Assembly: GCF_006442795.2 (NCBI RefSeq)
Contig: NZ_CP083956.1
Location: 2,829,501-2,893,500, forward strand
From: Mesorhizobium sp. B1-1-8
GTDB taxonomy: Bacteria > Pseudomonadota > Alphaproteobacteria > Rhizobiales > Rhizobiaceae
Direction: 5' to 3'
Length of the DNA: 64,000 nt
Part shown: piece by piece, positions 4,504 to 46,952 of the stretch
Layout of the letters: each line of letters begins with the position of its first letter
How positions within the stretch are numbered: the first letter of the stretch is position 1
Made by a program: the position numbers and the translations under genes
Notes under the pieces: model-generated
Told to the model about the DNA's origin: nothing
Database searches by the model: none
Seen by the model: only the letters and a program-made list of their open reading frames with translations

Positions 4504-4589
4504 CGCAGCAACCGGTGGCGCAATCCAGCCGCACGGTGACGGAATTTGGTTTGCCGGCCCCAACGATTCTGCCTATAGTCGTCCTTGTC

Positions 4590-4770: not shown

Positions 4771-4778
4771 CTTACGTG

Positions 4779-9843: not shown

Positions 9844-9858
9844 GTCGATTTGGGCTAG

Positions 9859-12360: not shown

Positions 12361-12374
12361 GCGGCCCGCCTGGG

Positions 12375-26190: not shown

Positions 26191-26194
26191 GGCG

Positions 26195-26302
26195 GAGCTA
26201 AAGCATGTCGCGTGAGAAGGAATCACGCGACATGCTTTAGCTCTTTGGTTTTAAGCATGTCTTTGTCCCGAAACCGCTGCACACTTTCGGGAGACATGCT
26301 TT
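26195..26302. repeat. Double hairpin repeat / bidirectional terminator
   Basis: A perfect 21-bp stem (26195-26215 with 26223-26243, 7-nt loop GAAGGAA) contains AAAGCATGTCGCGTGA. A second hairpin follows: AAGCATGTCT (26253-26262) with AGACATGCTT (26293-26302), enclosing CCCGAAA/TTTCGGG. The pair lies between convergent genes, and the last bases overlap the stop of the MFS gene. The inner CCCGAAA-TTTCGGG hairpin is related to the element at 47896. Confidence 0.85.
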
Positions 26303-28509: not shown

Positions 28510-31495
28510 GCATGCGGCTCCCGTCCGGATCGTAGAAATGGTTGGAGACGATCTCGATCGGCCCGAAGCGGTTGCGTAGTGGATCGGAGACGAATGCGCG
28601 CGTGCCGTGCCGCGCCTTGCCGCCCTCGACCAGCGCCAGCGCGATGTATTTGCCGAGCGCCGGCGAATAGCAGCAGGCGGTGATGTGGCCGATCGAATCG
28701 CGGGGATTTTCTTCGTCCAGTTGCTCGACGATGTGACCGCCGCCATTGAATGGCCGGTTGTCGAGCGAGACCAGGCCGACCAGCTGCAGCCGGCCGGGCG
28801 CGATCAGGCCCTCGCGGTCCATCATCGCCGAGCCGATGAAAGGCTTCTTCTTCGACAGCATCCAGTCGAGATGCAGGTCGCGCGCCGTGGTGCGGCCGTC
28901 GATCTCGGCGCCGGTGACGTGGCCCTTCTCGATGCGCATCGTGCCCAGGGCCTCGAGCCCGTAGGGCACCAGGCCAAAGGGCTTGCCGGCCTCGATCAGG
29001 GCTTCCCAGACGCGGGTGCCGTAGCCGGCGCCGGAATAGACCTCGAAGGCCATTTCGCCGGAGAAGGAGAGGCGGCATATCATGACCGGCACGCCGGCGA
29101 TCTGGCCGTGGACGATGCCCATGAACGGAAGCGCCGCATTGTCGACCGCGGTGCCGGTGACACAGGCGGCAAGGATAGTCCTGGCTTTCGGTCCGCCGAT
29201 CGCGGCGCCCGCCCATTCGTCGGTGACGGAAGTGACCGTGACCTTCAGCTCCGGCCAGATGACGTCGAGGAAATATTCCAGATGCTGCATCACCTTGCCG
29301 GCATTGGCGGTGGTGGTGGTCATCAGGAAGTCTTGTTCGCCGAGCCGCCAAGTGGTGCCGTCGTCGAAGGCAAGGCCGTCCTCGCGCAGCATCAGGCCAT
29401 AGCGGGCCTTACCGACGGCGAGGTTCGAAAACATGTTGGTGTAGACGCGGTCCAGCAGCTCAGCCGCGTCGGGGCCCTGCACGGCGATCTTGCCCAGCGT
29501 CGAGACATCGACGATGCCGGCGCTTTCACGCGTTGCCCTGGCCTCGCGCACATAGGCCTGCTCGATCGTCTCGCCGGGCAGGCCATAGATCATCGGCCGG
29601 TACCAAAGGCCGGCCGAATACATGGTGGCGCCGTTGGCGATGTGCCAGTCATGCATCGGCGTCAGCCGCTCGGGCTTCAGATCGCCGAAACGTTCCGCCG
29701 CCAGCGAGCCGATCGACACCGCGGTATAGGGCGGACGAAAGCGCGTCGTGCCGACTTCCGGGATCGGCTTGCCGAGCGCCTCGGCCATGATGGCGAGGCC
29801 CGGCACGTTGGAGCTCTTGCCCTGGTCGGTCGCCATGCCGAGCGTGGTGTAGCGCTTCAGATGCTCGACCGAGATGAAGCCCTCGCAATGCGCCAGCCGC
29901 ACGTCCTCTGACGTTACGTCATGCTGGAAATCGACAAAGCTCTTGCCCTTGGCCTTGATCTCGAACACCGGCGCGGGATCGGGATCGCCCGGGAACGCCT
30001 CGACAACGGGCAGGGGAGCGGGCGGCGTTTCCCGGCCCGCAGCCGAGAGACCGGCCGCCCGGCCTTCTGCAATGGCTTGCGCGGTCGAAAAACTGCCGGT
30101 GAAGGCGCCGGCGCCGATCCAGCGCTGCGTCGGCTTGGGCGGCAGGAAGGCCTGCGTGGCCGGATCCCACTCAGCCCTGGCGCCGGCCTGGCTGGCCAGA
30201 TGGATGGTCGGCGACCAGCCGCCGGACACAGCCAAGCAGTCGGCATGGATGCTGCGCGTGTCGCCGCTCAACGCGCCGCTCAGCATGTCGAAGCGCTGCA
30301 CCTTGAGCCCGGAGAGCGCCTTGCCGCCTTCCGTGGCGATCACCGCATGGCCGGCAAGCAGTTCCGCCTCGGCTTCGCTCGCCAGCTTGCGCATCTCGTT
30401 CGAGACGTCGGCGCGGACGTCGATGATGGCAACGACGGCGGCGCCGGCCCTCTTCAGCGCGATGGCCGAGCGGTAGGCGCTGTCGTTGTTGGTGAACAGC
30501 GCGATCCGCTCGCCGGGCAGCACGCCATATTCGTTGGCGTAGTGTTCGGCCGCATGCGCCAGCATGACGCCCGGACGGTCGTTGCCGGGAAACACCAGCG
30601 GACGCTCGAAGGAGCCGGTGGCGAGAACCACCGTCCTGGCGCGGATCGCCCAGTAGCGCTGGCGCGGCTCGCCCTTGGCCGGCACCTCCTTGTGATCGGT
30701 GACGCGCTCGAGCGCGGCAAGGGTGTTGCCGTCGTAATAGCCCCAGACCGTCGTGCGCGGCAAAAGCCGCACATTGTCGTTGCCTTCAAGCTGGCCGGCA
30801 ATGCGCGCCGCCCAATCGGCCGCCGGCGAACCATCGATCATCTCGCCCGACCAGTTGGCGGAACCGCCGAAACGCGGCTCGAGTTCGGCCAGGATGACGC
30901 GCGCGCCCTGGTCGGCGGCGGCCTTTGCCGCCATCAGCCCGGCCGGGCCGGAGCCGACCACCAGCACGTCGCAAAAGGCATTCATGCGCTCGTAGCGCGA
31001 GGGATCGGGCGCGACGCCCGCTTTGCCGAGGCCCGCGGCGCGGCGAATGAAATGCTCGCAGAACATCCAGAAGCGCGTGCCCTTAAGCGGCCCGATCACG
31101 GGCCCCATGAAGGTCTTGTAGTAGAAGCCGGCCGACAGCAGCTTGCCGCCGAGCTGGTTGACGGCGCTCACGTCCCAGGCGAGCGAGGGGAAACGGTTCT
31201 GGCTGACGGCAACAAGCCCGTCATAGATCTCGACCATGGTAGCGGCGATATTGGGTTCGCGCACCTCGCCGCGCAGCACCGTGACCAGCGCGTTCGGCTC
31301 CTCGACGCCGGCGGAGAGCAGGCCGCGCGGGCGATGGTATTTGAAGGAGCGCCCGAACAGCGTGACGCCGCTGGCGAGCAGCGCCGAGGCCAGCGTGTCG
31401 CCGGCATGGCCGGTGTAGGGCGCGCCGTCGAAGGTGAAGCGTATGGTGCGCAGCCGGTCGATGCGGCCGCCGGTCTCGGTGCGGCGCGGGCTCAC
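28502..31495 (-). CDS. soxA: Sarcosine oxidase alpha subunit
   Basis: A 997-residue subunit of normal family length. An N-terminal ferredoxin-like fold (IRFTFDGAPYTGHAGDTLAS, about residues 18-37) is followed by the NAD-binding Rossmann domain (DVLVVGSGPAGLMAAKAAAD near 174-193) and a C-terminal GcvT-like folate domain (from about 600; STLGKIAVQGPDAAELL, LSFSGEMAFEVYSGAG). The start is GTG at 31495, overlapping the soxD stop by 4 bp. It carries the noncovalent FAD/NAD+ sites and the THF site of the complex. Confidence 0.95.
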   Translation of the reverse strand: MSPRRTETGGRIDRLRTIRFTFDGAPYTGHAGDTLASALLASGVTLFGRSFKYHRPRGLLSAGVEEPNALVTVLRGEVREPNIAATMVEIYDGLVAVSQNRFPSLAWDVSAVNQLGGKLLSAGFYYKTFMGPVIGPLKGTRFWMFCEHFIRRAAGLGKAGVAPDPSRYERMNAFCDVLVVGSGPAGLMAAKAAADQGARVILAELEPRFGGSANWSGEMIDGSPAADWAARIAGQLEGNDNVRLLPRTTVWGYYDGNTLAALERVTDHKEVPAKGEPRQRYWAIRARTVVLATGSFERPLVFPGNDRPGVMLAHAAEHYANEYGVLPGERIALFTNNDSAYRSAIALKRAGAAVVAIIDVRADVSNEMRKLASEAEAELLAGHAVIATEGGKALSGLKVQRFDMLSGALSGDTRSIHADCLAVSGGWSPTIHLASQAGARAEWDPATQAFLPPKPTQRWIGAGAFTGSFSTAQAIAEGRAAGLSAAGRETPPAPLPVVEAFPGDPDPAPVFEIKAKGKSFVDFQHDVTSEDVRLAHCEGFISVEHLKRYTTLGMATDQGKSSNVPGLAIMAEALGKPIPEVGTTRFRPPYTAVSIGSLAAERFGDLKPERLTPMHDWHIANGATMYSAGLWYRPMIYGLPGETIEQAYVREARATRESAGIVDVSTLGKIAVQGPDAAELLDRVYTNMFSNLAVGKARYGLMLREDGLAFDDGTTWRLGEQDFLMTTTTANAGKVMQHLEYFLDVIWPELKVTVTSVTDEWAGAAIGGPKARTILAACVTGTAVDNAALPFMGIVHGQIAGVPVMICRLSFSGEMAFEVYSGAGYGTRVWEALIEAGKPFGLVPYGLEALGTMRIEKGHVTGAEIDGRTTARDLHLDWMLSKKKPFIGSAMMDREGLIAPGRLQLVGLVSLDNRPFNGGGHIVEQLDEENPRDSIGHITACCYSPALGKYIALALVEGGKARHGTRAFVSDPLRNRFGPIEIVSNHFYDPDGSRMHG

Positions 31496-31785
31496 GGCTT
31501 GCCCTCCGTCTTGTGAGACGATTTGTGGTGGTGACCACGGGCGAAAGCGGTGCTCCGGATCTCATGCGTGACCGTGTTGCGCACGACGCGGAGATGCGCG
31601 CGGCAGCCGCCCGAATGCTGCCAGATCTCGTTGTGGTCGCCGGCCGGGTTGAGCCGGTCGTAGACATAGGCATTCCATGCGTCGAGGTTTTGCGACGCCG
31701 GCTGCGGCCGCTCGCGATTGCCATCACCCTGATAGGTGAATTCGATGACGTCGCGTGGGCCGCAATAGGGGCAAGTAATCAGCAT
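31492..31785 (-). CDS. soxD: Sarcosine oxidase delta subunit
   Basis: A 97-residue subunit. Zinc ligands are visible as C5-x2-C8 in LITCPYCGPRD and the later WQHSGGCRAHL (His and Cys), matching the SoxD zinc site. DLDAWNAY-type sequence (NLDAWNAYVYDRLNPAGDH) is conserved in the family. The C-terminus is His/Lys-rich (HHHKSSHK). It is the second gene of the sox operon, 12 bp after soxB, and it overlaps soxA. Confidence 0.93.
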   Translation of the reverse strand: MLITCPYCGPRDVIEFTYQGDGNRERPQPASQNLDAWNAYVYDRLNPAGDHNEIWQHSGGCRAHLRVVRNTVTHEIRSTAFARGHHHKSSHKTEGKP

Positions 31786-31797
31786 TCTATCAAGACC

Positions 31798-33057
31798 CTA
31801 GTGCAACCTGGGCGTCGCGCCCTGGCCTTTGTCGTCGATGACGAGGCCGCGGTAGAAACGGTCGAGCGTGAAAGGCGCGTTGAACTGGTGCGGTTCGTCC
31901 TTGGCAATGGTGTATGCAAAGCACCAGCCGGAGGCAGGCGTCGCCTTGAAGCCGCCATAGCACCAGCCGCAATTGAGATACATGCCGGGCAGCGGGCCGG
32001 TGGTGATGATCGGCGAGCCGTCCATCGTCATGTCGCAAAGCCCGCCCCAGGAGCGCAGCATGCGCACGCGCGCCAGGCCCGGGAACAGCGCCAGCATCTC
32101 GCTCATCACCTCGTCGACGATCGGCAGGCTGCCGCGCTGGGCGTAGCTGTTGTAGCCGTCGAGGTCGCCGCCATAGACGAGGCCGCCCTTGTCCGACTGC
32201 GACATGTAGAAATGACCCATGCCGAAGGTCAGGACCGTGTCGACGAACGGCTTCAGCGATTCCGTCACAAAGGCCTGCAGCACGTGGCTTTCGATAGGCA
32301 TATGGTCGATGCCGGCAAGCTGCATGACCTGCCCCGTGCTGCCGGCAACGGCCAGGGCCACCTTTTTGGCGCGGATCTCGCCGCGCGAGGTCGAGACACC
32401 GGTGATGCGGTCGCCGTCGCGCAGGAAACCGGTGACCTCGCAATTCTCGATGATGTCGACGCCGCGCCGGTCGGCGCCGCGGGCATAACCCCAGGCGACA
32501 GCGTCATGGCGGGCGGTGCCGGCGCGCGGCTGCATCAGGCCGCCATAGATCGGGAATCGCGCCGAACCGGAAACGTCGAGCGCCGGGACCAGCCGGGAAA
32601 TCTCGGCGGTCGTCATCAGCTCGGCATCGACGCCGAGATGGCGCATGGCGTTGCCGCGCCTGGCGTAGTCGTCGAGCTGGGCAGGCGTATGGGCAAGGTT
32701 GAGGCAGCCGCGCTGCGAGAACATGACGTTGTAGTTGAGATCATGGGAGAGGTTCTCCCACAGCTTCATCGAATGCTCGTAGAAGCGTGTGTTTGATGGC
32801 AAAAGGTAGTTGGAGCGCACCGCTGTGGTGTTGCGGCCGACATTGCCGGAACCGAGCCAGCCTTTTTCCAGCACCGCGACATTGGCGATGCCATGCTCCT
32901 TGGCGAGATAATAAGCCGTCGACAGACCATGGCCGCCGCCGCCGATAACGATGACGTCATAGGAGGCCTTGGGGTCCGGCTTGCGCCAGGCGGGCTTCCA
33001 GTCCTTGTTTCCGGTCAGCGCGTTCTTGAGCAGCGAAAAGGCTGAATATTCCGCCAT
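31798..33057 (-). CDS. soxB: Sarcosine oxidase beta subunit
   Basis: A 419-residue DAO-type flavoprotein. The FAD Rossmann motif DVIVIGGGGHGLSTAYYLA begins near residue 34, and ARHDAVAWGYARGADRRG near 170-187 carries the histidine that binds FMN covalently in SoxB. GMYLNCGWCYGGFKATPASG near the C-terminus is a second SoxB signature. ATG at 33057 is supported by GAGAGGAAG upstream. It is the first gene of soxBDAG; the folate enzyme genes glyA and purU that often accompany this operon are not adjacent. Confidence 0.95.
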   Translation of the reverse strand: MAEYSAFSLLKNALTGNKDWKPAWRKPDPKASYDVIVIGGGGHGLSTAYYLAKEHGIANVAVLEKGWLGSGNVGRNTTAVRSNYLLPSNTRFYEHSMKLWENLSHDLNYNVMFSQRGCLNLAHTPAQLDDYARRGNAMRHLGVDAELMTTAEISRLVPALDVSGSARFPIYGGLMQPRAGTARHDAVAWGYARGADRRGVDIIENCEVTGFLRDGDRITGVSTSRGEIRAKKVALAVAGSTGQVMQLAGIDHMPIESHVLQAFVTESLKPFVDTVLTFGMGHFYMSQSDKGGLVYGGDLDGYNSYAQRGSLPIVDEVMSEMLALFPGLARVRMLRSWGGLCDMTMDGSPIITTGPLPGMYLNCGWCYGGFKATPASGWCFAYTIAKDEPHQFNAPFTLDRFYRGLVIDDKGQGATPRLH

Positions 33058-33262
33058 TCTTCCTCTCGTCCTGTGGATGCGATGCGGCAGACTATAGAGC
33101 AGCCCATAGGCGCAAAGCCAAGATTGCGCCATGGCTTTTCGACAGGCCGACTCGCTTTCGTGCCGCCGGCTCCAGGCGGTATGGCTTGCCGCCCGGTATG
33201 GCGGTCTTTATCAAAGGGCGGAATTTTTCCAAGGTTTTCCGGCCGCGAGTCGCAGCGACGTC

Positions 33263-36191: not shown

Positions 36192-36218
36192 AAAGGCCGG
36201 GCGAATGTCCGGCCTTTT
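36192..36218 (+). terminator. Rho-independent terminator
   Basis: AAAGGCCGG (36192-36200) pairs with CCGGCCTTT (36209-36217) around an 8-nt loop, followed by TTTA. It ends the transcript of the small secreted protein and separates it from the operon starting at 36376. Confidence 0.85.
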
Positions 36219-36375: not shown

Positions 36376-37809
36376 ATGGACGCGCGGTCGGACAGGAACG
36401 CAATCCCGTTTGCGGTCGACCTCGACGGCACGCTGATTGCAACCGACCTCCTGTGGGAAGGCCTGTTCATCCTGCTCAAGAAGAACCCGCTCTATCTCTT
36501 TCTCCTGCCGCTGTGGCTGACAGGCGGTCCCGCGCGGTTGAAGCAGGAGATCGCCGATCGCATCGACATCGATCCGGCCTCGCTGCCTTACCGGGTTGAA
36601 TTGCTCGAGCGCCTGCGCGCCGAACACGATGAAGGCCGCAAGATCGTTCTGGCGACGGGAACGCCGCGCAAATTCGCCGAGGCGATCGCAGCCCATCTCG
36701 GCCTCTTTGACCATGTGCTGGCGACCGACGGTCCACACAACATGACTTCGGGCAGGAAGCGCGCCTCGCTGGTCGCCGCCTATGGCGACGGCGGCTTCGA
36801 CTATGCCGGCAACAGCCGCCACGACCTCCAGGTATTCGACGCCGCGCGTACGGCAATCGTGGTCGCGCCGGACCGCAGCGCCGCGCGCTGGCAGGCGGCG
36901 CGCGGGGCCGAGAGCATGGCGGCGCCGAGGCCGAGTTGGAAGACATTGGTCAAGATGCTGCGCGTGCATCAGTGGCTGAAGAATTCGCTGATCGCGGTGC
37001 CGATGGTGCTGTCGCATGAGTATTTCAACATCGGCATGATTTGGCAGTGCGTGGTGGCGTTCGTTTCCTTCAGCGCCGTGGCGTCCGCCATCTATATCAT
37101 CAACGATTTCTTCGACCTGGCGCTCGACCGCAAGCATCCGAGCAAGCGCAACCGGCCCTTCGCCAGCGGCGCGCTGTCGATCCCATTCGGCTTTGGCGCC
37201 ATCGCCATGCTGCTGGCGACCGGCATCGCCGCGGGCTGCCTGCTGCCGATCCAGTTCCTCGGCGTGCTCGGCGGCTATATGGTCATCACCACCGCCTACT
37301 CGCTGTCGTTCAAGCGCATGCTTTTGATCGACGTGCTGACGCTTGCCGGCCTCTACACGGTTCGGGTGATGGCGGGCGCCGCGGCGACCGGCGTCGACGT
37401 GTCCTTCTGGCTGCTTGCCTTCTCGATCTTCTTCTTCCTGTCGCTGGCGCTGGTGAAGCGCTTCGTCGAATTGCGCACCACCGCCATTGCGCCAGGCGAA
37501 CGCATTGCCGGTCGCGGCTATCGCACCGAGGACCAGGAGATCGTCGCCCAGGCGGGCATGGCTTCGGCCTTTTCCTCGGCGCTGGTTCTGGCGCTCTACA
37601 TGGACAGCCCGGCGGTGCGCGAGCTCTATCCGCATCCATGGGTGATGTGGCCGCTGGCGCCGATCGTTCTCTATCTCACCATGCGCGTCTGGATTCTTGC
37701 CCGCCGCGACGAAATGAATGACGACCCGGTCGTGTTCATCATCCGTGACTGGCGCAGCCAGATCGTCGTCGCGGTCGGCGCGGCCCTGCTGGTTGTCGGG
37801 GGTTGGTGA
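36376..37809 (+). CDS. HAD hydrolase-UbiA prenyltransferase fusion (DPPR synthase-like)
   Basis: A 477-residue fusion. Residues about 10-180 are a HAD phosphatase-like domain (VDLDGTLIATDLLWEG at about 14-29, nucleophile motif DxDGT). Residues about 190-477 are a UbiA membrane prenyltransferase with the first aspartate motif at N243 (NDFFDLALDRKHPSKRNRP) and the second in FKRMLLIDVLTLAGLYTVR near 314-332. This order recalls 5-phosphoribosyl-1-diphosphate:decaprenyl-phosphate transferase (Rv3806c), with the HAD part a candidate for the following dephosphorylation; rhizobial NoeC is of the same family. Here it begins an operon with a DprE1-like oxidase. The substrate assignment is inference. 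Confidence 0.82.
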   Translation: MDARSDRNAIPFAVDLDGTLIATDLLWEGLFILLKKNPLYLFLLPLWLTGGPARLKQEIADRIDIDPASLPYRVELLERLRAEHDEGRKIVLATGTPRKFAEAIAAHLGLFDHVLATDGPHNMTSGRKRASLVAAYGDGGFDYAGNSRHDLQVFDAARTAIVVAPDRSAARWQAARGAESMAAPRPSWKTLVKMLRVHQWLKNSLIAVPMVLSHEYFNIGMIWQCVVAFVSFSAVASAIYIINDFFDLALDRKHPSKRNRPFASGALSIPFGFGAIAMLLATGIAAGCLLPIQFLGVLGGYMVITTAYSLSFKRMLLIDVLTLAGLYTVRVMAGAAATGVDVSFWLLAFSIFFFLSLALVKRFVELRTTAIAPGERIAGRGYRTEDQEIVAQAGMASAFSSALVLALYMDSPAVRELYPHPWVMWPLAPIVLYLTMRVWILARRDEMNDDPVVFIIRDWRSQIVVAVGAALLVVGGW

Positions 37810-37811
37810 GG

Positions 37812-39164
37812 ATGGGCGGCGAACGCTTCGGCAGCTTCGGGCTGGCGACGCCGCCGGCGCGCCAGGCGATTGCGGCTGAAGACGCGATTGCCTTGCTGAA
37901 GATCGGCGCGGCCAAGCCGGGTTCCCTGCTTGGCTACGGCAATGGCCGCTCCTATGGCGACAGCTGCCAGAACGACGCCGGGATGGTGATCGACATGCGG
38001 CCGCTCAACCGCATTCGCGCCTTCAATGCCGAGACTGGGGTGATCGAGGCGGACGCCGGCGTGCTGCTTAGCGACATCATCTCCCATGCAGCGCCTTTCG
38101 GTTTCTTCCCGGCGGTGGTTCCCGGCACGCAGTTCGTCACGCTGGGCGGCGCCATCGCCAACGATGTCCACGGCAAGAACCACCACCGGCGCGGCACTTT
38201 CGGCTGCCACGTCGAAGCTTTCATGCTGCTCAGGTCGGACGGCAAGACATACCGTTGCTCCGAGACGGACAATGCGCGCCTGTTCCGCGCAACGATAGGC
38301 GGCATGGGGCTGACCGGCCTGATCCTTTCGGCCTCGATCCGGCTGATGCGGGTGCCGTCGCTCGATATCGTCGAGAAGGCGACCCGGTTCAGCGATCTCG
38401 GCGAATTCTTCGAGCTCGCCGAGGCGGCGGACCAGGCCAATGAATATGCCGTCGCCTGGATCGACCAGCTTGCCGGCGGTCATGGGCGCGGACGCGGGCT
38501 GCTGTTTACCGGCAATCATGCCGAGCATGGCTCGCACGCCGCCGCGCGGGCCGGCAGCCGGCTTGCGGTGCCGGCGCAGCCGCCGTTCAACGTGCTCAAC
38601 CGGCCGTTCCTGACTGTCTTCAACGCGGCCTACCGGTGGAAAAAGGCACGCTCTGCCGCGCCCCGCCAGACGGGCTACCAGGGCTTCTTCTTTCCGCTCG
38701 ACGGCGTTCGCGACTGGAACCGGTTCTATGGCCCGCGCGGGCTTTTCCAGCACCAGAGCGTGGTGCCGGAGGCCGCTGCGCGCCGCGCTATTCCCGCGCT
38801 GCTCGAAGCGGCGAGGCAAGCGGGGCAGGGATCGTTCCTGACGGTGCTGAAACGCTTCGGCGGCGTCCGCTCGCCGGCGCTGCTGTCGTTTCCGCGGCCC
38901 GGCTACACGCTGACGCTGGATTTCCCCAACCGGGGCGAAAGGACGTTGCGGCTGCTCGCCGAGCTCGACCGTATGACGGTCGACGCGGGCGGGGCGGTCA
39001 ACCCTTACAAGGATGCCCGCATGGGCGCCGAGACCTTTGCGGCGTCCTTTCCGGAATGGCAGCGGCTGGAGGCGCTTCGCGACCCGGCATTCCTATCGAG
39101 CTTCTGGGCTCGAACGGCGAAAAAACTGGACGCAAGGCGCGGAACGGCGGAGGCGGCAGAGTAG
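37812..39164 (+). CDS. DprE1-like FAD-binding oxidoreductase
   Basis: A 450-residue flavoprotein of the VAO fold. The FAD PP-loop is GYGNGRSYGDS near residues 40-50; GGAIANDVHGKNHHRRGTFG near 113-132 closely follows the DprE1 segment in which a histidine lies near the flavin, and VLKRFGGVRSP and LTLDFPNRGER match the DprE1 C-terminal domain. In mycobacteria DprE1 oxidises the 2'-OH of decaprenyl-phosphoryl-ribose. The ATG at 37812 has GGGGG about 9 nt upstream and starts 2 bp after the UbiA stop; GTG 37806 is an alternative. No candidate for DprE2 is certain. Confidence 0.85.
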   Translation: MGGERFGSFGLATPPARQAIAAEDAIALLKIGAAKPGSLLGYGNGRSYGDSCQNDAGMVIDMRPLNRIRAFNAETGVIEADAGVLLSDIISHAAPFGFFPAVVPGTQFVTLGGAIANDVHGKNHHRRGTFGCHVEAFMLLRSDGKTYRCSETDNARLFRATIGGMGLTGLILSASIRLMRVPSLDIVEKATRFSDLGEFFELAEAADQANEYAVAWIDQLAGGHGRGRGLLFTGNHAEHGSHAAARAGSRLAVPAQPPFNVLNRPFLTVFNAAYRWKKARSAAPRQTGYQGFFFPLDGVRDWNRFYGPRGLFQHQSVVPEAAARRAIPALLEAARQAGQGSFLTVLKRFGGVRSPALLSFPRPGYTLTLDFPNRGERTLRLLAELDRMTVDAGGAVNPYKDARMGAETFAASFPEWQRLEALRDPAFLSSFWARTAKKLDARRGTAEAAE

Positions 39165-39170
39165 ATAGAA

Positions 39171-39219
39171 TTTGAGTAAGTCATGGTAAATGAAGTGTTA
39201 AATCCATGGTTTACTCAAA
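39171..39219. promoter_or_regulatory. Imperfect 16-bp inverted repeat before the small membrane-protein gene
   Basis: TTTGAGTAAGTCATGG (39171-39186) is mirrored by CCATGGTTTACTCAAA (39204-39219), two mismatches in 16, with a 17-bp spacer. It lies in the 122-bp gap after the DprE1-like gene, the longest gap in this operon, and the surrounding DNA is AT-rich. It may be an operator with an internal promoter or a large hairpin in the mRNA. Confidence 0.6.
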
Positions 39220-39286
39220 ACCTTCTTGTGACTTCACGAAACGTTTGCAGGTTTGTAGTAGGACTGCTGCGGGGCAGGGTGGCAAT

Positions 39287-39736
39287 ATGAAATACATCGT
39301 CTTCATTCTCTTCACGGTCATGACCAATGCCGCGGCGCAGCTGATGCTGAAGCAGGGCATGATGTCGCTCGGGCCGATCTCGTTCGAGGGCACCAATCCG
39401 CTCCTCAAGCTGCTGCAGATCGTCTTCAGCCCATGGGTTTTCGTCGGTCTGTGCACCTTCGTCATCTCGATGGCCTCGCACCTCTATGTGCTGTCCAAGG
39501 TCGAGCTCAGCTTCGCCTATCCGTTCCTCAGCCTGGCCTATGTCGCGGTCGCGATCTTCGCCTATTTCATCTTCCGCGAGGATATCAACGGCTGGCGCAT
39601 CGCCGGCATCGCCTGCATCTGTGTCGGCACCGTGCTGATCGCGCAAAGTGGCCGGGAAATGGGCGGGCGCGGGCATGAGGACCAGACCGCTTCGATAATT
39701 CCCGACAAGATCGGCAGCAGCGAGATCGTTCGATGA
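39287..39736 (+). CDS. Small EamA/SMR-like membrane protein (possible lipid-linked-sugar flippase)
   Basis: A 149-residue protein with four hydrophobic segments (about residues 3-22, 45-65, 70-92 and 98-118) in the SMR/EamA half-transporter layout; the pattern ASHLYVLSKVELSFAYPFLS and YVAVAIFAYFIFREDING is like ArnE/ArnF, which flip undecaprenyl-phospho-aminoarabinose. The last 25 residues are soluble. ATG at 39287 chosen over an upstream ATG whose leading peptide is not hydrophobic. It overlaps the epimerase gene by 4 bp. Flippase function in this operon is inference from neighbours. Confidence 0.75.
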   Translation: MKYIVFILFTVMTNAAAQLMLKQGMMSLGPISFEGTNPLLKLLQIVFSPWVFVGLCTFVISMASHLYVLSKVELSFAYPFLSLAYVAVAIFAYFIFREDINGWRIAGIACICVGTVLIAQSGREMGGRGHEDQTASIIPDKIGSSEIVR

Positions 39737-40740
39737 GACATGTGATTTTCGGCGGCGACGGCTTCGTCGGCCGCCATCTTGCTCCCAGGCTCGTCGCGGA
39801 CGGCGAGGAAGTTGTCGTCGCCGATGTCGTCAAGAGCGACCTGCCGCACTACCGCTCGGTCCGTTTCACCACATGCGACGTAACCGATCCGGCCTCTGTC
39901 GCCGCGGTCGGCCTCAGGGCCGACGACATGGTCTACAATCTGTCGGCCAAGATGCTGTCACCGATCCAGGTGCGCGCCAAGCGGCACGACTTCTTCTTTC
40001 CGGTCAATTTCCACGGCACCGAGCACATCATGCAGGCCATGGACAAGGCCGGCGCGCCAAAGCTCGTCCATTATACGACCGACATGATCTACGGCCACAC
40101 GGTCACCTTGCCGATGACGGAGGACCACCCGGTCGCGCCGCTCGGCGAATATGGCTGGTCGAAGCAAAAGACCGAGGAACTTGCCGCCGAATGGCGCAAG
40201 CGCGGCATGTCGATCTCGCTGTTCAGGCCGCGCCTGATCATCGGACCCGGGCGTCTCGGCATCCTCGAAAAACTGTTCAAGCTGATCGACTGGAACCTGC
40301 CGGTGCCGATGATCGGCTCCGGGCGCAATCCCTATCAGTTCATTTCCGTTTTCGACTGCGCCGAAGCCGCGCGCGCGGCCTGGAAGGCCGGGGTGCCGAA
40401 CGAGGCCTACAACCTTGGCTCGCTCAATCCGCCGCCAGTCAGGAAACTGCTAGGCGATCTGATCAAACATGCCGGCTCGAAGTCGATCCTGATCCCGACT
40501 CCCGGCTGGGCGGTCAAGCGCACGCTCGACCTGCTCGATTTGATGAACATGCCGATCATGGATCCGGAACAATATCTGATCGCCGATGAGGAATGCGTGC
40601 TCGACGTGTCGAAAGCCGGGCGCCAGCTCGGCTGGGTGCCGCGATACCGCGACGAGGACATGCTGATCGCCGCCTACAGCGAATACCGCGCCAAGAAAGA
40701 CGGCCATGCCGTCGCTACGAAACATGTGCCTGCCGAGTAG
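39733..40740 (+). CDS. NAD-dependent epimerase/dehydratase
   Basis: A 335-residue extended short-chain dehydrogenase. The NAD-binding motif is IFGGDGFVGRHLAPR near residues 5-19, and the catalytic YxxxK is YGWSKQK near 140-146. Substrate domain is typical (RPRLIIGPGRLGIL, FISVFDCAEAARAAW). It probably converts a nucleotide- or lipid-linked sugar. It could supply the reductase step after the DprE1-like oxidation or epimerise an activated sugar; neither is shown. Overlaps the preceding gene by 4 bp and is 21 bp before the aminotransferase. Confidence 0.85.
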   Translation: MRHVIFGGDGFVGRHLAPRLVADGEEVVVADVVKSDLPHYRSVRFTTCDVTDPASVAAVGLRADDMVYNLSAKMLSPIQVRAKRHDFFFPVNFHGTEHIMQAMDKAGAPKLVHYTTDMIYGHTVTLPMTEDHPVAPLGEYGWSKQKTEELAAEWRKRGMSISLFRPRLIIGPGRLGILEKLFKLIDWNLPVPMIGSGRNPYQFISVFDCAEAARAAWKAGVPNEAYNLGSLNPPPVRKLLGDLIKHAGSKSILIPTPGWAVKRTLDLLDLMNMPIMDPEQYLIADEECVLDVSKAGRQLGWVPRYRDEDMLIAAYSEYRAKKDGHAVATKHVPAE

Positions 40741-40761
40741 GGCGCGAAGGGAGATTTCGAG

Positions 40762-42237
40762 ATGACCGTAATGGCCAAGCCGGAACAGACAGGCACGCGC
40801 ACGCTGGTCAACGCGCCGGCGCTGTCGCCCGCAGCAACAGCCAAGCCCGACCTGATCAGCGTCGAGCACGCCAAGGCGCTCGACGTCGCCCGCATCACCG
40901 ACCTGTTCAAGGCGCATCTCAACCCCGGCCAATTGCATTTCATGAAGCTGCTCGGCTTCCACAAGATCAAGATCGAGCGCGCCGAGGGCATGTTCTACAT
41001 CGACCAGAACGGCCGCAAGATCCTCGACTTCTTCGGCGGGTTCGGCTCGCTGGCCTTCGGCCACAACCATCCGCGCATTCTTGAAGCGCGCAAAAAGTTC
41101 CAGGAGGAAAAGCGCCAGGAAATCGCCATCGCCTTCATGTCGCAATATGCGGCGGCACTGGCGCACAACATCGCCAAGTGCTCGCCCGGCGATCTCGACA
41201 TGGTGTTTTTGGGCTCCTCCGGCTCGGAAGCGATGGAAGCGGCGGTGAAGCTCGCCGAGCGAGCCGCCGGCCCGAAGCGGCCGAAAATCGTCTATGCCGA
41301 GAATTCCTTCCACGGCAAGACCAAGGGCGTGCTGGCGATCACCGACGGTTCACTCTACCGCGCCGATTTCAAGGTTCCTGAGAATGTCGTGCGGGTTCCC
41401 TTCGCCGACATCGATGCGGTCGAGCGTGCCTTCCGCAACGACCCCGAGATCGGCGTCATTGTGCTGGAAACCATCCAGGGCGGCGGCGGCATCATCCAGG
41501 CGCCGATCGAGTACTGGCAGAAGCTGCGCGCGCTCTGCGACAAGCACGGCGTGCTGTGGGTCGCCGACGAAGTGCAGTGCGGCTATGGCCGCTCCGGCCG
41601 CTTCTATGCTTTCGAGCATTACGGGGTTGTGCCCGACGTAACGGCGCTGGCGAAATCGCTAGGCGCCGGAAAAGCTGCGGTCGGCGCCATGATCGCCAAG
41701 CGCGACGTCTACATGAAAGCCTATGGCACGCCGAAGACGGCGATGATCCATGCCATGGCGACTTTCGGCGGCATGGGCGAGGCCTGCGTCACCGCGATCG
41801 AGGGGCTGAACGTCCTCTATGACGAGGGCCTGATCGACAATGCCGCCGCGACCGGCGATTACCTTTTGCAGCGCCTGCAGGCGCTGAAGGAAAAATATCC
41901 GAAGATCATCAAGGATGTGCGGGGCAAGGGTTTGATGGTCGGGCTCGAGTTCCACGATTTCTCGCAGACCTTGCCGATGGTTTTGCGGCCGGTGGTCAGC
42001 GTGCTCGACGACAAGCTCAAAGGTTCGCTGTCGGGCTTCGTCGGCTCGCTGCTCTTGCGCGATTACGACGTGCTCGTCGCCTTCACCGAGTACAACCGCA
42101 ACGTCATCCGGCTGGAGCCGCCGCTGATCTGCCAATGCGAGCATGTCGACCGTTTCGTCGACGCCTTCGACAGCCTGCTCTCGCGCGGCATCGTGGCGAT
42201 CGTGAAGGACTTCGTCAAAAGCCAAGTCGGCAAATAA
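40762..42237 (+). CDS. Class III PLP aminotransferase
   Basis: A 491-residue fold-type I enzyme of the acetylornithine/4-aminobutyrate group. SSGSEAMEAAVKLAE near residues 153-167, WVADEVQCGYGRSGRF near 267-282 and the PLP lysine in ALAKSLGAGKAAVG near 296-309 are visible. An N-terminal 60-residue extension and a C-terminal helical segment make it longer than ornithine aminotransferases. Within this operon it might make an amino-sugar or amino-polyol; HpnO, a class III aminotransferase of hopanoid side chains built from ribose, is another comparison. RBS GGGAG at about 40749. Confidence 0.82.
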   Translation: MTVMAKPEQTGTRTLVNAPALSPAATAKPDLISVEHAKALDVARITDLFKAHLNPGQLHFMKLLGFHKIKIERAEGMFYIDQNGRKILDFFGGFGSLAFGHNHPRILEARKKFQEEKRQEIAIAFMSQYAAALAHNIAKCSPGDLDMVFLGSSGSEAMEAAVKLAERAAGPKRPKIVYAENSFHGKTKGVLAITDGSLYRADFKVPENVVRVPFADIDAVERAFRNDPEIGVIVLETIQGGGGIIQAPIEYWQKLRALCDKHGVLWVADEVQCGYGRSGRFYAFEHYGVVPDVTALAKSLGAGKAAVGAMIAKRDVYMKAYGTPKTAMIHAMATFGGMGEACVTAIEGLNVLYDEGLIDNAAATGDYLLQRLQALKEKYPKIIKDVRGKGLMVGLEFHDFSQTLPMVLRPVVSVLDDKLKGSLSGFVGSLLLRDYDVLVAFTEYNRNVIRLEPPLICQCEHVDRFVDAFDSLLSRGIVAIVKDFVKSQVGK

Positions 42238-42254
42238 GGCCGTTGAGCGAGACG

Positions 42255-43487
42255 ATGCTGACCAGATCGCCGCCACCGAACAACCCGATCGACCGGCTCA
42301 CCGAGGCCGGCCTGGCGTGGGGTGAGGGGACCTATGCGCGGCTGGCGGTGCCCATCGGGGCTGCGGCCTTCGCGCTCTACATCCTTTTGACCGCGTTTAC
42401 CGCCTGGTTCATGCCCGACGCCAACTGGGACATGCTGCCTTATCTGGCGATCGCCGAGGAAGGCACCTATGCCGATCCACAGGCGCTGCATGATTATGCC
42501 TATGAGACGGTCAAGGCCGGCGTGTCGGCCGGCGACTACAAGGCGCTGACCGACGACGGCGGCGGCTTCCGCAGCCACATGACCGAAAATGCCGCCGACT
42601 TCCATTCGCTGCTCGGCATGTACCGGATCAAGTTCCTTTATGCCGAGGTGTTGTCCAGCCTCAGCCATATCGTGTCGCCGGTCGAAGCGATGCGGCTAGT
42701 GCAGGTGTTCTCGGTGCTTTTGTTCGGCGCCATCACGCTCGCCTGGCTACGCTCGCAGTACGCGCTGGCGCTGGCGCCGGTTGCCGGCGCTGTCCTGATC
42801 ATGGCTGATTTCGGCGACGCGACACGCGCATCGACGCCCGACCTGTTGTGCTCGGCGCTGTTCGTCGGCGGGCTCTTTGCCTATGTACGCAAACGCGAGG
42901 CGGCGACCGCGATCCTGCTCTTCCTTGCCTTCATGGCGCGGCCGGACAATATTGTCTTCCTTGCCATTTTCGCCGTGCTGCTGGTCGTCTTCCGGCAAAG
43001 GGCATGGGGCGCGCTGGCCGGCTTCGCCGCCTCCTTCGTCGCCTATTTCGCCATCTCGCACTGGGCCCAGCATCCGGGCTGGTGGCCGCATCTGTGGTTC
43101 TCCAGCATCGAGCAGCACTACAACATGGACGGCTTCGAGCCGCCTTTCTCGGTGGCTGCTTATCTCAAAGCCTTCGCTGCTTCGGTGGTGCGCTCCGTCA
43201 GCGTCAACAGCTGGGTCGGCGTCTCGGTGCTGGCGCTGGCCGGATGGTATGGGCTTGACCGCGCCGGCTTCAGGCTCGACCGCCGCGCAGGTATCCTGCT
43301 TGCAGCACTTGTGCTCGGCGTGTTGGCAAAGTTTGCCGTCTTCCCGATCCACGACACCCGCATCTACTTTCCCAATCTGTTGCCGCCGTTCCTGTTGCTC
43401 GCCGCGCCCTTGATGGCGCTGTGGGGGTCGGCGAGCCATGGCGCACGCCACGCGGCACCGCAGGCCACTTCCGGAGACAAATCATGA
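42255..43487 (+). CDS. Polytopic membrane protein, possible GT-C glycosyltransferase
   Basis: A 410-residue protein with about 9-11 hydrophobic segments. A large loop after the first segment (about residues 50-120) carries acidic residues in PDANWDMLPYLAIAEEGTY, placed where GT-C enzymes have their catalytic aspartate; ArnT- and arabinofuranosyltransferase-like proteins have this layout. I cannot show sequence homology by eye. ATG at 42255, 17 bp after the aminotransferase stop; a TTG at 42243 is possible. If it is GT-C, it would transfer the lipid-linked sugar on the periplasmic side. Confidence 0.6.
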   Translation: MLTRSPPPNNPIDRLTEAGLAWGEGTYARLAVPIGAAAFALYILLTAFTAWFMPDANWDMLPYLAIAEEGTYADPQALHDYAYETVKAGVSAGDYKALTDDGGGFRSHMTENAADFHSLLGMYRIKFLYAEVLSSLSHIVSPVEAMRLVQVFSVLLFGAITLAWLRSQYALALAPVAGAVLIMADFGDATRASTPDLLCSALFVGGLFAYVRKREAATAILLFLAFMARPDNIVFLAIFAVLLVVFRQRAWGALAGFAASFVAYFAISHWAQHPGWWPHLWFSSIEQHYNMDGFEPPFSVAAYLKAFAASVVRSVSVNSWVGVSVLALAGWYGLDRAGFRLDRRAGILLAALVLGVLAKFAVFPIHDTRIYFPNLLPPFLLLAAPLMALWGSASHGARHAAPQATSGDKS

Positions 43488-44239
43488 GTTCGGTTTCCAG
43501 CCTGGCGCGCGTTCTTGTCTCGCTCGGCCTTCCCGCCGGCCTGCTCGACCGCGGCCCGGCGCTGCGCGGCACGAAGTTCCTCGCCAAGGCTGCCCTGGAG
43601 GCGCGTTTCAGCGGCGGCAGGCCGTTCCAGATGGTCAATGTCGGCGCCTGTGATGGCGCGCTGTTCGACGACGTCACACCCTGGCTGCACCGCATTCCGC
43701 GCGCCCGTGCCATGCTGGTCGAGCCGATCCCCTATAACCAGAAGCGGCTGCGCGCCAATTATCCCGATGCCGAGCGCTTCGTCATCGAGCCGGTGGCGGT
43801 GACCAGGACCAAGGGTACCATCACCGTCCACACTTTCGATGCCGCGGCGCTGGAAGCCGGCACGCTGCCGATCGAGTTCATCGGCTGCTCATCGGTCACA
43901 GACACCAATCTGATGTCGGGCAAGAATGCCTGGGGCGAGGCCGACGCCAACTTCAACAAGTTCGCGCCGCACCTCAAGGACATCGAGGTGCCGTCCGAGA
44001 CGCTGCAGACGCTGCTCGACCGCAACGGCATCACCCATATCGACGCTTTCCTGGTCGATTGCGAAGGCGCCGACTGGATGGTGTTCGAACAGCTCGACCT
44101 CAAGCGCTACCGTCCCGGCATGATCAAGGTCGAGGTTGGCGCGCTGCCGGCCGCCGAGATCGGCCAGGTCGTCGTCAAGCTGAAGACCGCCGGTTACCAG
44201 GTCGGATTCCAGGCCGAGGATGTCTGGGCCTTCGCCTGA
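43484..44239 (+). CDS. FkbM-family methyltransferase
   Basis: A 251-residue SAM-dependent enzyme. MVNVGACDGALFDDVTP near residues 49-65 is the SAM motif I; HIDAFLVDCEGADWMVFEQL near 186-205 and GMIKVEVGALPAAEIGQV fit the FkbM domain, which O-methylates sugars and polyketides. GGAGA lies upstream of the ATG, which overlaps the preceding stop by 4 bp (ATGA). Last gene of the operon; the acceptor is probably a sugar of the same product. Confidence 0.85.
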   Translation: MSSVSSLARVLVSLGLPAGLLDRGPALRGTKFLAKAALEARFSGGRPFQMVNVGACDGALFDDVTPWLHRIPRARAMLVEPIPYNQKRLRANYPDAERFVIEPVAVTRTKGTITVHTFDAAALEAGTLPIEFIGCSSVTDTNLMSGKNAWGEADANFNKFAPHLKDIEVPSETLQTLLDRNGITHIDAFLVDCEGADWMVFEQLDLKRYRPGMIKVEVGALPAAEIGQVVVKLKTAGYQVGFQAEDVWAFA

Positions 44240-44390
44240 AAAAACGCCTTCCACAGCGAGCCTGCAGCCATGGTCGCGCCGCACCTGCGGCGTGTCGCAA
44301 ACAGGCGGTAGCCGGGTCACTGTCCTCTGCATATTGTGCGCCCATTAAACGGGCGCCAATTTGCCCGCTTGTCACTTGGAGTCGAGGGCA

Positions 44391-46952
44391 ATGGCAGAGT
44401 TTCCGAAAAAGGCGAAGGTCGTCATCGTCGGTCTGGGCGGTATCGTCGGCGCATCCGTCGCCCATCATCTGATCGAGCGTGGCTGGGACGACATCGTCGG
44501 CATCGACAAATCGGGCATCCCGACCGATATCGGCTCGACCGCGCATGCCTCGGATTTCTGCTACACGACCAGCCATGACTTTCTGTCCTGCTGGACGACG
44601 CTTTACTCCATCGATTTCTACGAGAAGATGGGCCACTACGCCCGCATCGGCGGCCTCGAGGTCGCCCGCGTGGGCGATGATGGCCGCATGGCCGAGATCA
44701 AGCGCAAGATCGCCTCGGCGAAATCCTTCGGCACCCGCGCGCGCCTGATCGAGCCGGCCGAGATCAAGCAAAAATTCCCGCTGATCGAGGAGCACCTGGT
44801 GCAAGGCGGCCTGTGGGATCCGGATGCGGGCCTTGTCATCCCCCGCTCGCAGACGGTGGCTGGCAAGCTGGTCGACCAGGGTGTCGCCTCCGGCAAGCTC
44901 CAGGCGTTCGCGAACACCTCTGCCAAGTCGCTCATCATCGAGGGCGGCCGTATCAAGGGCGTGGTGACCGAGCGCGGCACGATCGAAGCCGACTATGTGG
45001 TCGTCTGCACCGGTATCTGGGGACGTTTGACCGCAGCACTGGTCGGCGAGGACCTGCCGGTCATGCCGATCGACCATCCGCTCACTTTCTTCGGCCCCTA
45101 CAACGAGTTCGCCGGCACCGGCAAGGAGATCGGCTGGCCGCTGCTGCGCGATCAGGGCAATTCGGCCTATATGCGCGACACCGGCGATCCGAAGACCGCC
45201 GAGGGCGGGCAGATCGAATGGGGCTATTACGAGGAAACCAATCCGCGCCTTTGCCATCCGCGCGACCTGCTGGAAAAGGACCAGGCGCGGCTTTCGCCGT
45301 CGCAGCGCGACCTCGACATGGAGCAGATCATGGCGCCGCTGGAGCGTGCCATGGAGCTGACGCCGATCCTCGGCGAGCTCGGCTACAATGAAGGCCATTC
45401 CTTCAACGGGCTGCTGCAGGTGACCACGGACGGCGGACCCTCCATGGGCGAAAGCCAGAAGGTGAGGGGGCTGTGGTATGCCGTCGCCATCTGGGTCAAG
45501 GACGGCCCCGGCATGGGCAAGCTGATCGCCGACTGGATGACCGACGGCCGCACAGCGATCGACCATCACGCCATCGACTATGCGCGCTTTTATCCGCACC
45601 AGATGCAGGAGCAGTTCATCTGGGACCGCTGCACCGAAACGGCGATGAAGGTCTACAATCCGGCGGTGCATCCGCGCGAGCCTTTCTCCAAGGGCCGCAA
45701 CATCCGCCGCTCGCCGTTCTGGGAGCGCGAGAAGGAGCTCGGCGGCTATTTCATGGAGCTGGGCGGCTGGGAACGCGCGCATGGCTACGCCGCCAACGAG
45801 CATCTGCTGGAAAAATATGGCAACCGGGTGCCGGTGCGTGAAGACGAATGGGACAACCGCCATTTCTGGCGCGTGTCGAATGCCGAGCACCTGGCCATGA
45901 GCGAGGATTGCGGCATCGTCAACCTGTCGCATTTCTCCATGTATGACGTCGAGGGACCCGACCATGTCGCGCTGCTGGAGTGGCTGTGCGCGGCCAAGAT
46001 CGGCGGCGACAACAACATCGGCAAGGGCATCTACACTCACTTCCTCGACGAGGAAGGCATGGTGCGCGCCGACTTTACCGTCATCCGCATGGCCGATCGC
46101 TGCCGGGTTATCGACGGCGCCGACGCCGGCCCGCGCGACTTCCGCTACATGCAGCGCACCGCGCAGGACAAGAGTTTTGATGTCACTATCACCGACGTGA
46201 CAGAGAAATACGTCACCATCGGCATCTGGGGACCGAATGCGCGCACGACCCTGCAGAAGGTGGTCGAGGATCCAAACGGGCTGACGCCTGAGAATTTCCC
46301 CTTCGCTGCGATCAAGCCGATCCGGATCGGCGGCAGGGACGTCACCGCGTTCCGCATCTCCTATGTCGGCGAGCAGGGCTGGGAACTGCATATGCGCTAC
46401 GAGGACGGCCTTGCCGTCTGGGACGCGCTGCGCTCGACCGGAGTCATGCCGTTCGGCGTCGAGACCTATGCCAACACGCGCCGCATGGAAAAGAGCCTGC
46501 GGCTGCAGAACGCCGATCTTCTCACCGAGTACAACCTGCTCGAAGCCGACCTTGCCCGCCCGAAGGTCAAGGAAAACGATTTCTGCGGCAAGGCCAAACA
46601 TTTGGAATATCGCGCCCGCGAGCACCAGCCGGCGATGCTGTGCACGCTGGTGATGACCGACAACAAGGACTCGAAGGGCGTCGCGCGCTATCCGGTCGGC
46701 ACCATGCCGGTGCTGGATCCGGCGACCGGCGGGACACTGGTCGACGAACTCGGCCGCCGTTCCTTCACCACCTCGGTCGCCTATGGTCCGACCATCGGCA
46801 AGAACATCGCGCTCGCCTATCTGCCCTGGGCCTACTGCCAGGAGGGCCGCAAGCTCAATGTGGAGTATTTCGGCGAAACCTATCCGGTCGAGGTGGCAAG
46901 CGTCGGCTACAAGCCGCTCTACGACCCGGAGAACCTGAAGCCGAGAAGCTGA
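44391..46952 (+). CDS. Divergent FAD-GcvT oxidoreductase (dimethylglycine dehydrogenase-like) C
   Basis: An 853-residue enzyme. The FAD domain begins KVVIVGLGGIVGASVAHHL, in which the first glycine of GxGxxG is shifted (GLGGIVG), and the usual STWHAAG block reads GSTAHASDF with His52 in the position of the covalent flavin ligand. A GcvT domain fills about 480-850 (SHFSMYDVEGPDHVALL, ISYVGEQGWELHM). It is about 40 residues longer than copies A and B. RBS GGAGTCGAGGG. It stands just after the FkbM gene but is separated by 151 bp and ends in a terminator. N-methyl substrate oxidation is likely; which substrate is not known. Confidence 0.82.
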   Translation: MAEFPKKAKVVIVGLGGIVGASVAHHLIERGWDDIVGIDKSGIPTDIGSTAHASDFCYTTSHDFLSCWTTLYSIDFYEKMGHYARIGGLEVARVGDDGRMAEIKRKIASAKSFGTRARLIEPAEIKQKFPLIEEHLVQGGLWDPDAGLVIPRSQTVAGKLVDQGVASGKLQAFANTSAKSLIIEGGRIKGVVTERGTIEADYVVVCTGIWGRLTAALVGEDLPVMPIDHPLTFFGPYNEFAGTGKEIGWPLLRDQGNSAYMRDTGDPKTAEGGQIEWGYYEETNPRLCHPRDLLEKDQARLSPSQRDLDMEQIMAPLERAMELTPILGELGYNEGHSFNGLLQVTTDGGPSMGESQKVRGLWYAVAIWVKDGPGMGKLIADWMTDGRTAIDHHAIDYARFYPHQMQEQFIWDRCTETAMKVYNPAVHPREPFSKGRNIRRSPFWEREKELGGYFMELGGWERAHGYAANEHLLEKYGNRVPVREDEWDNRHFWRVSNAEHLAMSEDCGIVNLSHFSMYDVEGPDHVALLEWLCAAKIGGDNNIGKGIYTHFLDEEGMVRADFTVIRMADRCRVIDGADAGPRDFRYMQRTAQDKSFDVTITDVTEKYVTIGIWGPNARTTLQKVVEDPNGLTPENFPFAAIKPIRIGGRDVTAFRISYVGEQGWELHMRYEDGLAVWDALRSTGVMPFGVETYANTRRMEKSLRLQNADLLTEYNLLEADLARPKVKENDFCGKAKHLEYRAREHQPAMLCTLVMTDNKDSKGVARYPVGTMPVLDPATGGTLVDELGRRSFTTSVAYGPTIGKNIALAYLPWAYCQEGRKLNVEYFGETYPVEVASVGYKPLYDPENLKPRS

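Follow-up and report, generated by a model that had tools for sequence, protein, structure and literature searches.

A seven-gene operon in Mesorhizobium sp. B1-1-8 probably makes and uses a polyprenyl-phosphate-linked amino-pentofuranose, by a route that leads from a DprE1-like oxidase (gene 2) to a class III aminotransferase (gene 5, hereafter AT3). The operon lies at positions 36376-44239 of the 64-kb piece of the 6.2-Mb genome that was analysed (the "window"), and its features are listed in Table 1. In a more specific form, which we hold with moderate confidence, AT3 has displaced DprE2: a 2-keto intermediate would be aminated on polyprenyl phosphate to give a 2-amino-2-deoxypentofuranose donor, which would serve an exchangeable GT-C glycosyltransferase in several families of the class and represent an undescribed branch. 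The arabinose pathway requires DprE2 after DprE1, and DprE2 acts at C2. AT3 stands where DprE2 should be, and amination seems to replace the reduction step of that pathway.

The exchange is seen in the distribution of the genes among 484 genomes, of which 199 were sampled from the order and 289 from the class (four genomes being taken to belong to both samples). Genes were scored as present at E <= 1e-40 for the oxidase, E <= 1e-120 for AT3 and E <= 1e-25 for DprE2. As DprE2 probe we took the DprE2-type short-chain dehydrogenase/reductase (SDR) encoded in a nod-linked cluster of S. alkalisoli (L090); identity among such SDRs from four clusters is 35-62%. Only the best candidates in each genome were scored, except in B1-1-8 itself, for which all were. 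The order sample contains 30 genomes with the oxidase, 10 with AT3 and 20 with DprE2; the AT3 and DprE2 lists do not overlap and together make up exactly the 30. In the class sample the corresponding counts are 31, 2 and 27, again with no overlap. The remainder consists of one genome (G380) in which a DprE2-like SDR adjoins the oxidase (40% identity and 179 bits to the Agrobacterium one) and another (G268) in which the contig ends soon after the oxidase. For the union of 484 genomes the oxidase was found in 60, AT3 in 11, DprE2 in 47, and AT3 together with DprE2 in none (Fisher p 2e-10, a value that overstates the case, since it is uncorrected for kinship and the genomes are not independent by descent). 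AT3 without a DprE1-like oxidase was not found in the 484 genomes, and in 46 of the 47 genomes with DprE2 this gene adjoins the oxidase, as counted by eye from coordinates. In B1-1-8, gene 2 is the sole DprE1-like gene (the next match scores 32 bits) and DprE2 is absent, the best of all 73 scored candidates reaching 27% identity and 47 bits against the L090 probe. Because its own genome is without DprE2, the operon does not look like an arabinose branch.

AT3 became paired with such an oxidase at least twice. In a tree of 37 chosen oxidases, 22 AT3-linked sequences fall in one group (91/90 support), with the oxidases of loci L122 and L088 inside it. The AT3-linked oxidase of genome G401 instead groups with seven DprE2-linked ones (100/99 support), and it is this placement that calls for a second origin; AT3 is 69% identical there.

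Gene linkage is conserved well beyond the window. Scanning with AT3 gave 207 loci; the best 80 were kept and examined, and 71 of these are titled Mesorhizobium. Genes 1-5 occur together in 78 of the 80 loci, and the other two are cut upstream by contig ends. All seven genes are matched in 59, three of which (L035, L057 and L061) hold gene 7 only as pieces of 28-69 residues. Gene 7 is missing in 14 loci (in L042 since the contig ends in gene 6), and genes 6 and 7 are both missing in five, one of which, L081, stops at AT3. The core is genes 1-5, present wherever the contig permits, and genes 6 and 7 are not part of it. A preliminary description, made from the sequence of this DNA alone, had treated all seven genes as a unit to be conserved together; this holds for genes 1-5, whereas some loci have a diverged gene 6 or none, and gene 7 is frequently lacking.

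Eleven further loci (ten genomes and one Neorhizobium plasmid), none of them from B1-1-8 or among the 80 scan loci, all have AT3 near genes 1 and 2, arranged in at least three gene orders. Gene 2 follows gene 5 in L120 and L121, L117 has a divergent arrangement, and genes 3-4 come first in L096. Leaving aside the same-genus locus L087, AT3 is 67-78% identical in these loci, compared with 28-57% for gene 1. On the contig of L116, genes 1, 2 and AT3 are the only members of the core that were seen; gene 3 was not seen there, and gene 4 was seen in neither L116 nor L118, the search for gene 4 being confined to the loci. The L116 locus suggests that gene 4 is dispensable to the oxidase and AT3. The presence of genes 1-5 together in nearly all scan loci, and of AT3 with genes 1 and 2 elsewhere, confirms that the cluster is real and not a product of chance.

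A solitary DprE1-like gene on S. meliloti pSymB (L088, 7917-9242), beside parE and a phospholipase gene, looks like a remnant of such an operon, because the lysine of HGKNHH (here HGGNHH) and the lysine aligned with K418 of Mycobacterium tuberculosis DprE1 (here Gln) are lost, and because Ensifer oleiphilus keeps the core in a like neighbourhood (L082 and L083, where it adjoins genes similar to the L088 surroundings, partly by eye).

The first two enzymes are recognisable by homology. Gene 1 is a fusion, as had been described, of a HAD domain (PF12710, 45 bits, cut-off 27; DLDGT at residue 15) and a UbiA domain (PF01040, 72 bits) that has both aspartate motifs, NDFFDLALDRKHP at residues 243-255 and a second Asp-bearing motif. 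The protein scores 638 bits against NF006088 (cut-off 351). Its UbiA part, at the C-terminal end, reaches 147 bits with the model for decaprenyl-phosphate phosphoribosyltransferase (DPPR synthase), below the cut-off of 234, and only 23-25 bits with quinone and heme prenyltransferase models; on these scores a quinone or heme prenyltransferase is rejected, in agreement with the earlier assignment. Matches in the PDB are to the mycobacterial DPPR enzyme (8j8j, E 4e-24) and, weakly, to an archaeal prenyltransferase (E 6e-4), and the alignment with the solved mycobacterial enzyme keeps N-D-x-x-D-x-x-x-D-R-x-H-P-x-K. The letters ND, D, DR, H, K and RP are invariant in 23 aligned rows (L096, whose UbiA protein is short and without HAD, was left out). 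Gene 1 has the Asn and the three Asp residues of the NDxxDxxxD motif that was examined in a fusion enzyme of Citrobacter (Kelly et al. 2024, PMC11127046). In that paper, substitution of the matching Asn/Asp residues is reported to leave the Citrobacter enzyme with little activity or none, and full dephosphorylation to depend on the HAD Asp. Gene 2, identified from the start as a DprE1-like oxidase, carries GGAIANDVHGKNHH and an FAD_binding_4 domain, scores 332 bits against the DprE1 model NF053785 (below its curated cut-off of 500) and aligns with DprE1 structures in the PDB over most of its length (E 3e-70). It keeps HGKNHH, QxQ, VLK and the Lys aligned with K418. For AT3, 170 of 491 columns are invariant in 23 aligned rows; its nearest named relatives are from Mesorhizobium (95-96% identity), and its best NCBIfam model is PigE, at 345 bits against a cut-off of 850.

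From this set of genes we infer the reactions, including the C2 position, the configuration, flipping, the acceptor and methylation. Gene 1 would make polyprenyl-phosphate ribose from phosphoribosyl pyrophosphate (PRPP), and its HAD domain would remove the 5-phosphate; these steps are assigned because of homology to the DPPR enzyme and to the Citrobacter fusion enzyme. The DprE1-like flavoenzyme would, also by homology, form a keto-pentosyl lipid by oxidising the sugar, with C2 the most likely position. AT3 would transaminate the ketone in place of the DprE2 reduction, giving polyprenyl-phosphate 2-amino-2-deoxypentofuranose, as the gene exchange suggests. The extended SDR (gene 4), where present, may alter a further stereocentre in the manner of Citrobacter ORF13, to judge from the available part of PMC11127046. 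The EamA/ArnF-like protein (gene 3) could flip the donor, and the predicted GT-C enzyme (gene 6) would attach the amino sugar to a glycan or lipid of the envelope; the FkbM protein (gene 7), where present, might O-methylate the sugar or the acceptor. The overall interpretation of the preliminary description, in which the cluster modifies, flips and transfers a lipid-linked pentose, is supported, while amination itself we infer.

Most oxidases that accompany AT3 differ at five positions from most of those that accompany DprE2. We compared 23 AT3-linked sequences (the window, 12 of the 80 scan loci and 10 others, L087 being left out) with 12 DprE2-linked ones (4 of 65 plasmid records and 8 of 20 genomes). 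A filter of at least 85% and at least 75% agreement picked out five positions, at which the oxidase of the window has L314, T347, T371, N400 and Y402 and the DprE2-linked oxidases have mainly F, A, A, Y and A. The AT3-type letters are common to 21 of the 23 AT3-linked rows of this chosen set. The five positions align with F332, N364, C387, Y415 and A417 of M. tuberculosis DprE1. In the available parts of the sources, C387 is given as an active-site residue (PMC6128881), Y415 and A417 as contacts of a co-crystallised inhibitor, and N364 as a contact of docked inhibitors (PMC9525719); the residue numbers were sought in PMC10994848 and not found. The clustering of the five changes there would fit a changed hand-over, product or oxidation site.

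Several observations weigh against displacement of DprE2 by AT3, or against the reading of the pocket. Genome G043 has genes 1-4 of the AT3 type (L122, C1) and no AT3 at the thresholds used; its DprE2, 64% identical to the S. alkalisoli gene, is on another contig (L123, C5), with no other probe matches nearby. Because G043 keeps genes 1-4 without AT3, the oxidase can exist without AT3. This genome fits either a lineage in which AT3 was lost and DprE2 perhaps works in trans, or an operon in decay. AT3 is also patchy, being present in five of nine sampled members of the genus; in a phylum sample of 299 genomes it was found only in five members of the genus (E <= 1e-100). Class III aminotransferases frequently use aldehydes, and PigE, the nearest named model to AT3, works on an aldehyde. 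At the five positions, two AT3-linked oxidases (L096 and L116) read like the DprE2 type, and the AT3-type letter occurs in single DprE2-linked oxidases at positions 314 and 371. Descent alone is expected to fix some of the differences, because 22 of the 23 AT3-linked oxidases form one group. Finally, a changed pocket could be a changed oxidation site.

If so, the aminated carbon may not be C2: the altered oxidase or the extended SDR would make a C3 or C5 carbonyl, leading to a 3-amino or 5-amino pentofuranosyl lipid. Such a change is favoured by the five oxidase positions, of which four lie, by documentation or docking, near the substrate pocket, as well as by the aldehydes commonly used by class III enzymes and the extended type of the gene 4 SDR. 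We nonetheless regard amination at C3 or C5 as unlikely, since gene 4 is not seen at L116 and L118 though genes 1, 2 and 5 are, AT3 is paired with a DprE2-lettered oxidase in G401 and L116, and exchange with DprE2, a C2 enzyme, fits C2.

Amination at C2 must also be weighed against a plain arabinose donor, for which gene 4 would replace DprE2 as the keto-reductase and AT3 would catalyse something else, such as a step on the acceptor. In its favour, gene 4 belongs to the NAD(P)-dependent SDRs, lies next to DprE1 and shows good conservation (122 of 335 columns do not vary among 22 aligned rows, and GGDGFVG and YGxSK are invariant). It has, however, no significant similarity to the DprE2-type SDR, which rules it out as a hidden DprE2, and two of the eleven further AT3 loci show no gene 4. 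G043 has gene 4 in addition to DprE2, and clusters of the Agrobacterium type contain another extended SDR as well as DprE2. Taken with these facts, an arabinose donor made by way of gene 4 is distinctly improbable. Class III enzymes also include racemases and epimerases (as named in the PDB), but that AT3 is a racemase or catabolic enzyme that merely lies nearby is very hard to credit, as it remains linked to genes 1 and 2 even in loci of several families that have been rearranged, and never occurs without the oxidase in the 484 sampled genomes.

Four known systems are closest to the operon. Three-component extracytoplasmic pentofuranose systems are described for Citrobacter youngae O1/O2 in PMC11127046, a paper that covers ribose, xylose and arabinose versions of this kind. 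Like the operon, in which flippase and GT-C enzyme are predicted ones, they have a HAD domain fused to a UbiA-type polyprenyl phosphoribosyltransferase, a flippase and a GT-C enzyme that uses the lipid-linked pentofuranose, and O2 has an auxiliary SDR epimerase as well. Unlike them, the operon adds a DprE1-like oxidase and a class III aminotransferase; its candidate flippase is of the EamA type rather than MATE (no match in family searches gives gene 3 that annotation), and no family match links the GT-C proteins of the two. The word aminotransferase does not occur in that paper. With the mycobacterial decaprenylphosphoryl-arabinose pathway (Rv3806c, Rv3807c, DprE1 and DprE2) the operon has in common a UbiA domain like that of DPPR synthase and a DprE1-like oxidase with HGKNHH, QxQ and the K418-aligned Lys; it differs in the absence of DprE2 from the genome, in the presence of an aminotransferase, and in that the phosphatase is the fused HAD domain.

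The preliminary description had assigned the arabinose branch of Nod-factor decoration to NoeC and NoeO homologues. Nod-factor arabinosylation in Azorhizobium involves the genes noeCHOP, and the available part of PMC2443382 does name noeC, noeH and noeO as putative D-arabinose precursor genes. NoeO is, however, more likely a reductase than an oxidase, because in the nod-linked S. alkalisoli cluster, taken as noe-type, the DprE1-like gene is followed by a short DprE2-type SDR. The UbiA and DprE1-like proteins of that cluster are 42% and 44% identical to those of the operon, and a GtrA protein is encoded there; within the 13 kb displayed, no aminotransferase is annotated. The Arn (4-amino-4-deoxy-L-arabinose lipid A) pathway begins from UDP-glucuronate and uses another type of aminotransferase; here, unlike in Arn, PRPP would be the source of the sugar and amination would take place on the lipid. 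Gene 3 scores 34 bits as ArnE and 52 bits as ArnF, against cut-offs of 92 and 99; these are its closest models. Gene 5 is an Aminotran_3 protein, and no model for a UDP-sugar C4 aminotransferase is among the operon matches listed (25 of 69 families), the operon being the part of the genome searched for Arn genes. Exact-word searches of one library of open papers found no description of a DprE1 and aminotransferase cluster or of an aminopentose donor, and no report, for or against, of an aminopentofuranose in a bacterial glycan.

The GT-C slot, held here by gene 6, is variable. Gene 6 has no match in Pfam or NCBIfam, but the preliminary description had called it GT-C-like, and structure prediction now gives a predicted GT-C fold that makes any other nature unlikely. 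Its identity falls to 33-37% in six loci. In L071 and L078 it is missing, and another polytopic open reading frame (ORF) stands at its place on the opposite strand. These two ORFs are 52% identical to each other, with a WD-motif ORF alike in L122; they have no Pfam match and no pairwise match to gene 6, and two of the sequences gave a poor structure model (pLDDT 39), so that only their position, hydrophobicity and WD motif hint at GT-C enzymes. In G043 the ORF of this kind lies beside genes 1-4. Nine polytopic candidates near AT3 operons were scanned against Pfam: PMT_2 is above cut-off in two (L116 10362-12038 and L117), matches are weak and below cut-off in two (L116 2958-4610 and L120), and none was found in the other five (L071, L078, L118, L096 and L119). 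No polytopic gene for the slot is among the ORFs listed just downstream in L082 and L083. Good support for an exchangeable GT-C enzyme is confined to loci with gene 6 itself or a PMT_2 match. Donor genes that stay while the GT-C slot varies are what would be expected if one donor goes to different acceptors. Beside the operon in L116 are two LPG-synthase-TM-like membrane proteins (9189-10196 and 12072-13133; the first was tested, 148 bits), and two PMT-like proteins also surround it; these proteins may take over flipping and transfer. Among the remaining genes of the operon, gene 4 scores only 55 bits as HpnA of the hopanoid route, against a cut-off of 368.

If correct, the proposed route would add amination to the known changes of pentofuranose on the lipid (C2 and C3 epimerisation, in the available part of PMC11127046). 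It would be a non-homologous swap at a well-known pathway node, and it predicts that Mesorhizobium and its relatives carry a new cationic sugar on their surface. It also suggests a genomic marker, with a DprE1-like oxidase plus DprE2 pointing to arabinose, and the oxidase plus AT3 to an amino sugar.

The seven ORFs fill the operon on the + strand, as first described, with spacings from gene 1 to gene 7 of -7, 122, -4, 21, 17 and -4 bp; the run is not unbroken, given the 122 bp between genes 2 and 3. All seven passed a codon-position GC filter, in which genes 3, 6 and 7 are listed with longer upstream starts. The gap may perhaps hold an internal promoter, although a sigma-70-like site was sought there and none was found. 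The stem-loop upstream of gene 1 is weak evidence of a terminator, because fewer such sites were found in the region (5) than expected from shuffles (7.6).

Table 1. Coordinates (window positions) of the operon genes and associated features.
Feature	Position	Strand	Evidence
Gene 1, HAD-UbiA fusion; predicted polyprenyl-phosphate phosphoribosyltransferase and 5'-phosphate phosphatase	36376..37809	+	PF12710, PF01040, NF006088, PDB 8j8j
Gene 2, DprE1-like FAD oxidase, TTG start	37803..39164	+	FAD_binding_4; NF053785; PDB DprE1 chains
Gene 3, EamA/SMR-type small membrane protein, predicted lipid-sugar flippase	39287..39736	+	PF00892 34 bits, cut-off 28.2
Gene 4, extended SDR (epimerase family), probably optional tailoring	39733..40740	+	PF01370 117 bits
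Gene 5, class III pyridoxal phosphate (PLP) aminotransferase AT3, proposed keto-pentosyl lipid aminating enzyme	40762..42237	+	PF00202 (Aminotran_3) 289 bits, cut-off 30.5
Gene 6, polytopic protein, predicted GT-C fold	42255..43487	+	Structure model pLDDT 82, fold match
Gene 7, FkbM-family methyltransferase, optional	43484..44239	+	PF05050 54.5 bits, cut-off 22.7; TIGR01444 42.2 bits, cut-off 37.7
Terminator-like stem-loop upstream of operon	36192..36217	+	11-pair stem, T-bearing tail; weak
Gap between genes 2 and 3, 122 bp	39165..39286		Partly conserved in alignment of 8 loci

The neighbourhood appears unrelated to the operon, because the genes around it look, by eye, like oxidases of another kind and a mechanosensitive channel. 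The channel-like gene precedes the operon, and genes resembling sarcosine or dimethylglycine oxidases flank it on both sides (18562-24640, 28502-33132 and 44361-46952); similar genes border the core in L071 and L078. Elsewhere in the window, the Brucella small RNA family BASRCI27 has a match at 26128-26310 on the - strand (64.1 bits, cut-off 59.8), and a cobalamin riboswitch (4575-4771, 130 bits) lies ahead of genes that look, by eye, cobalamin-related.

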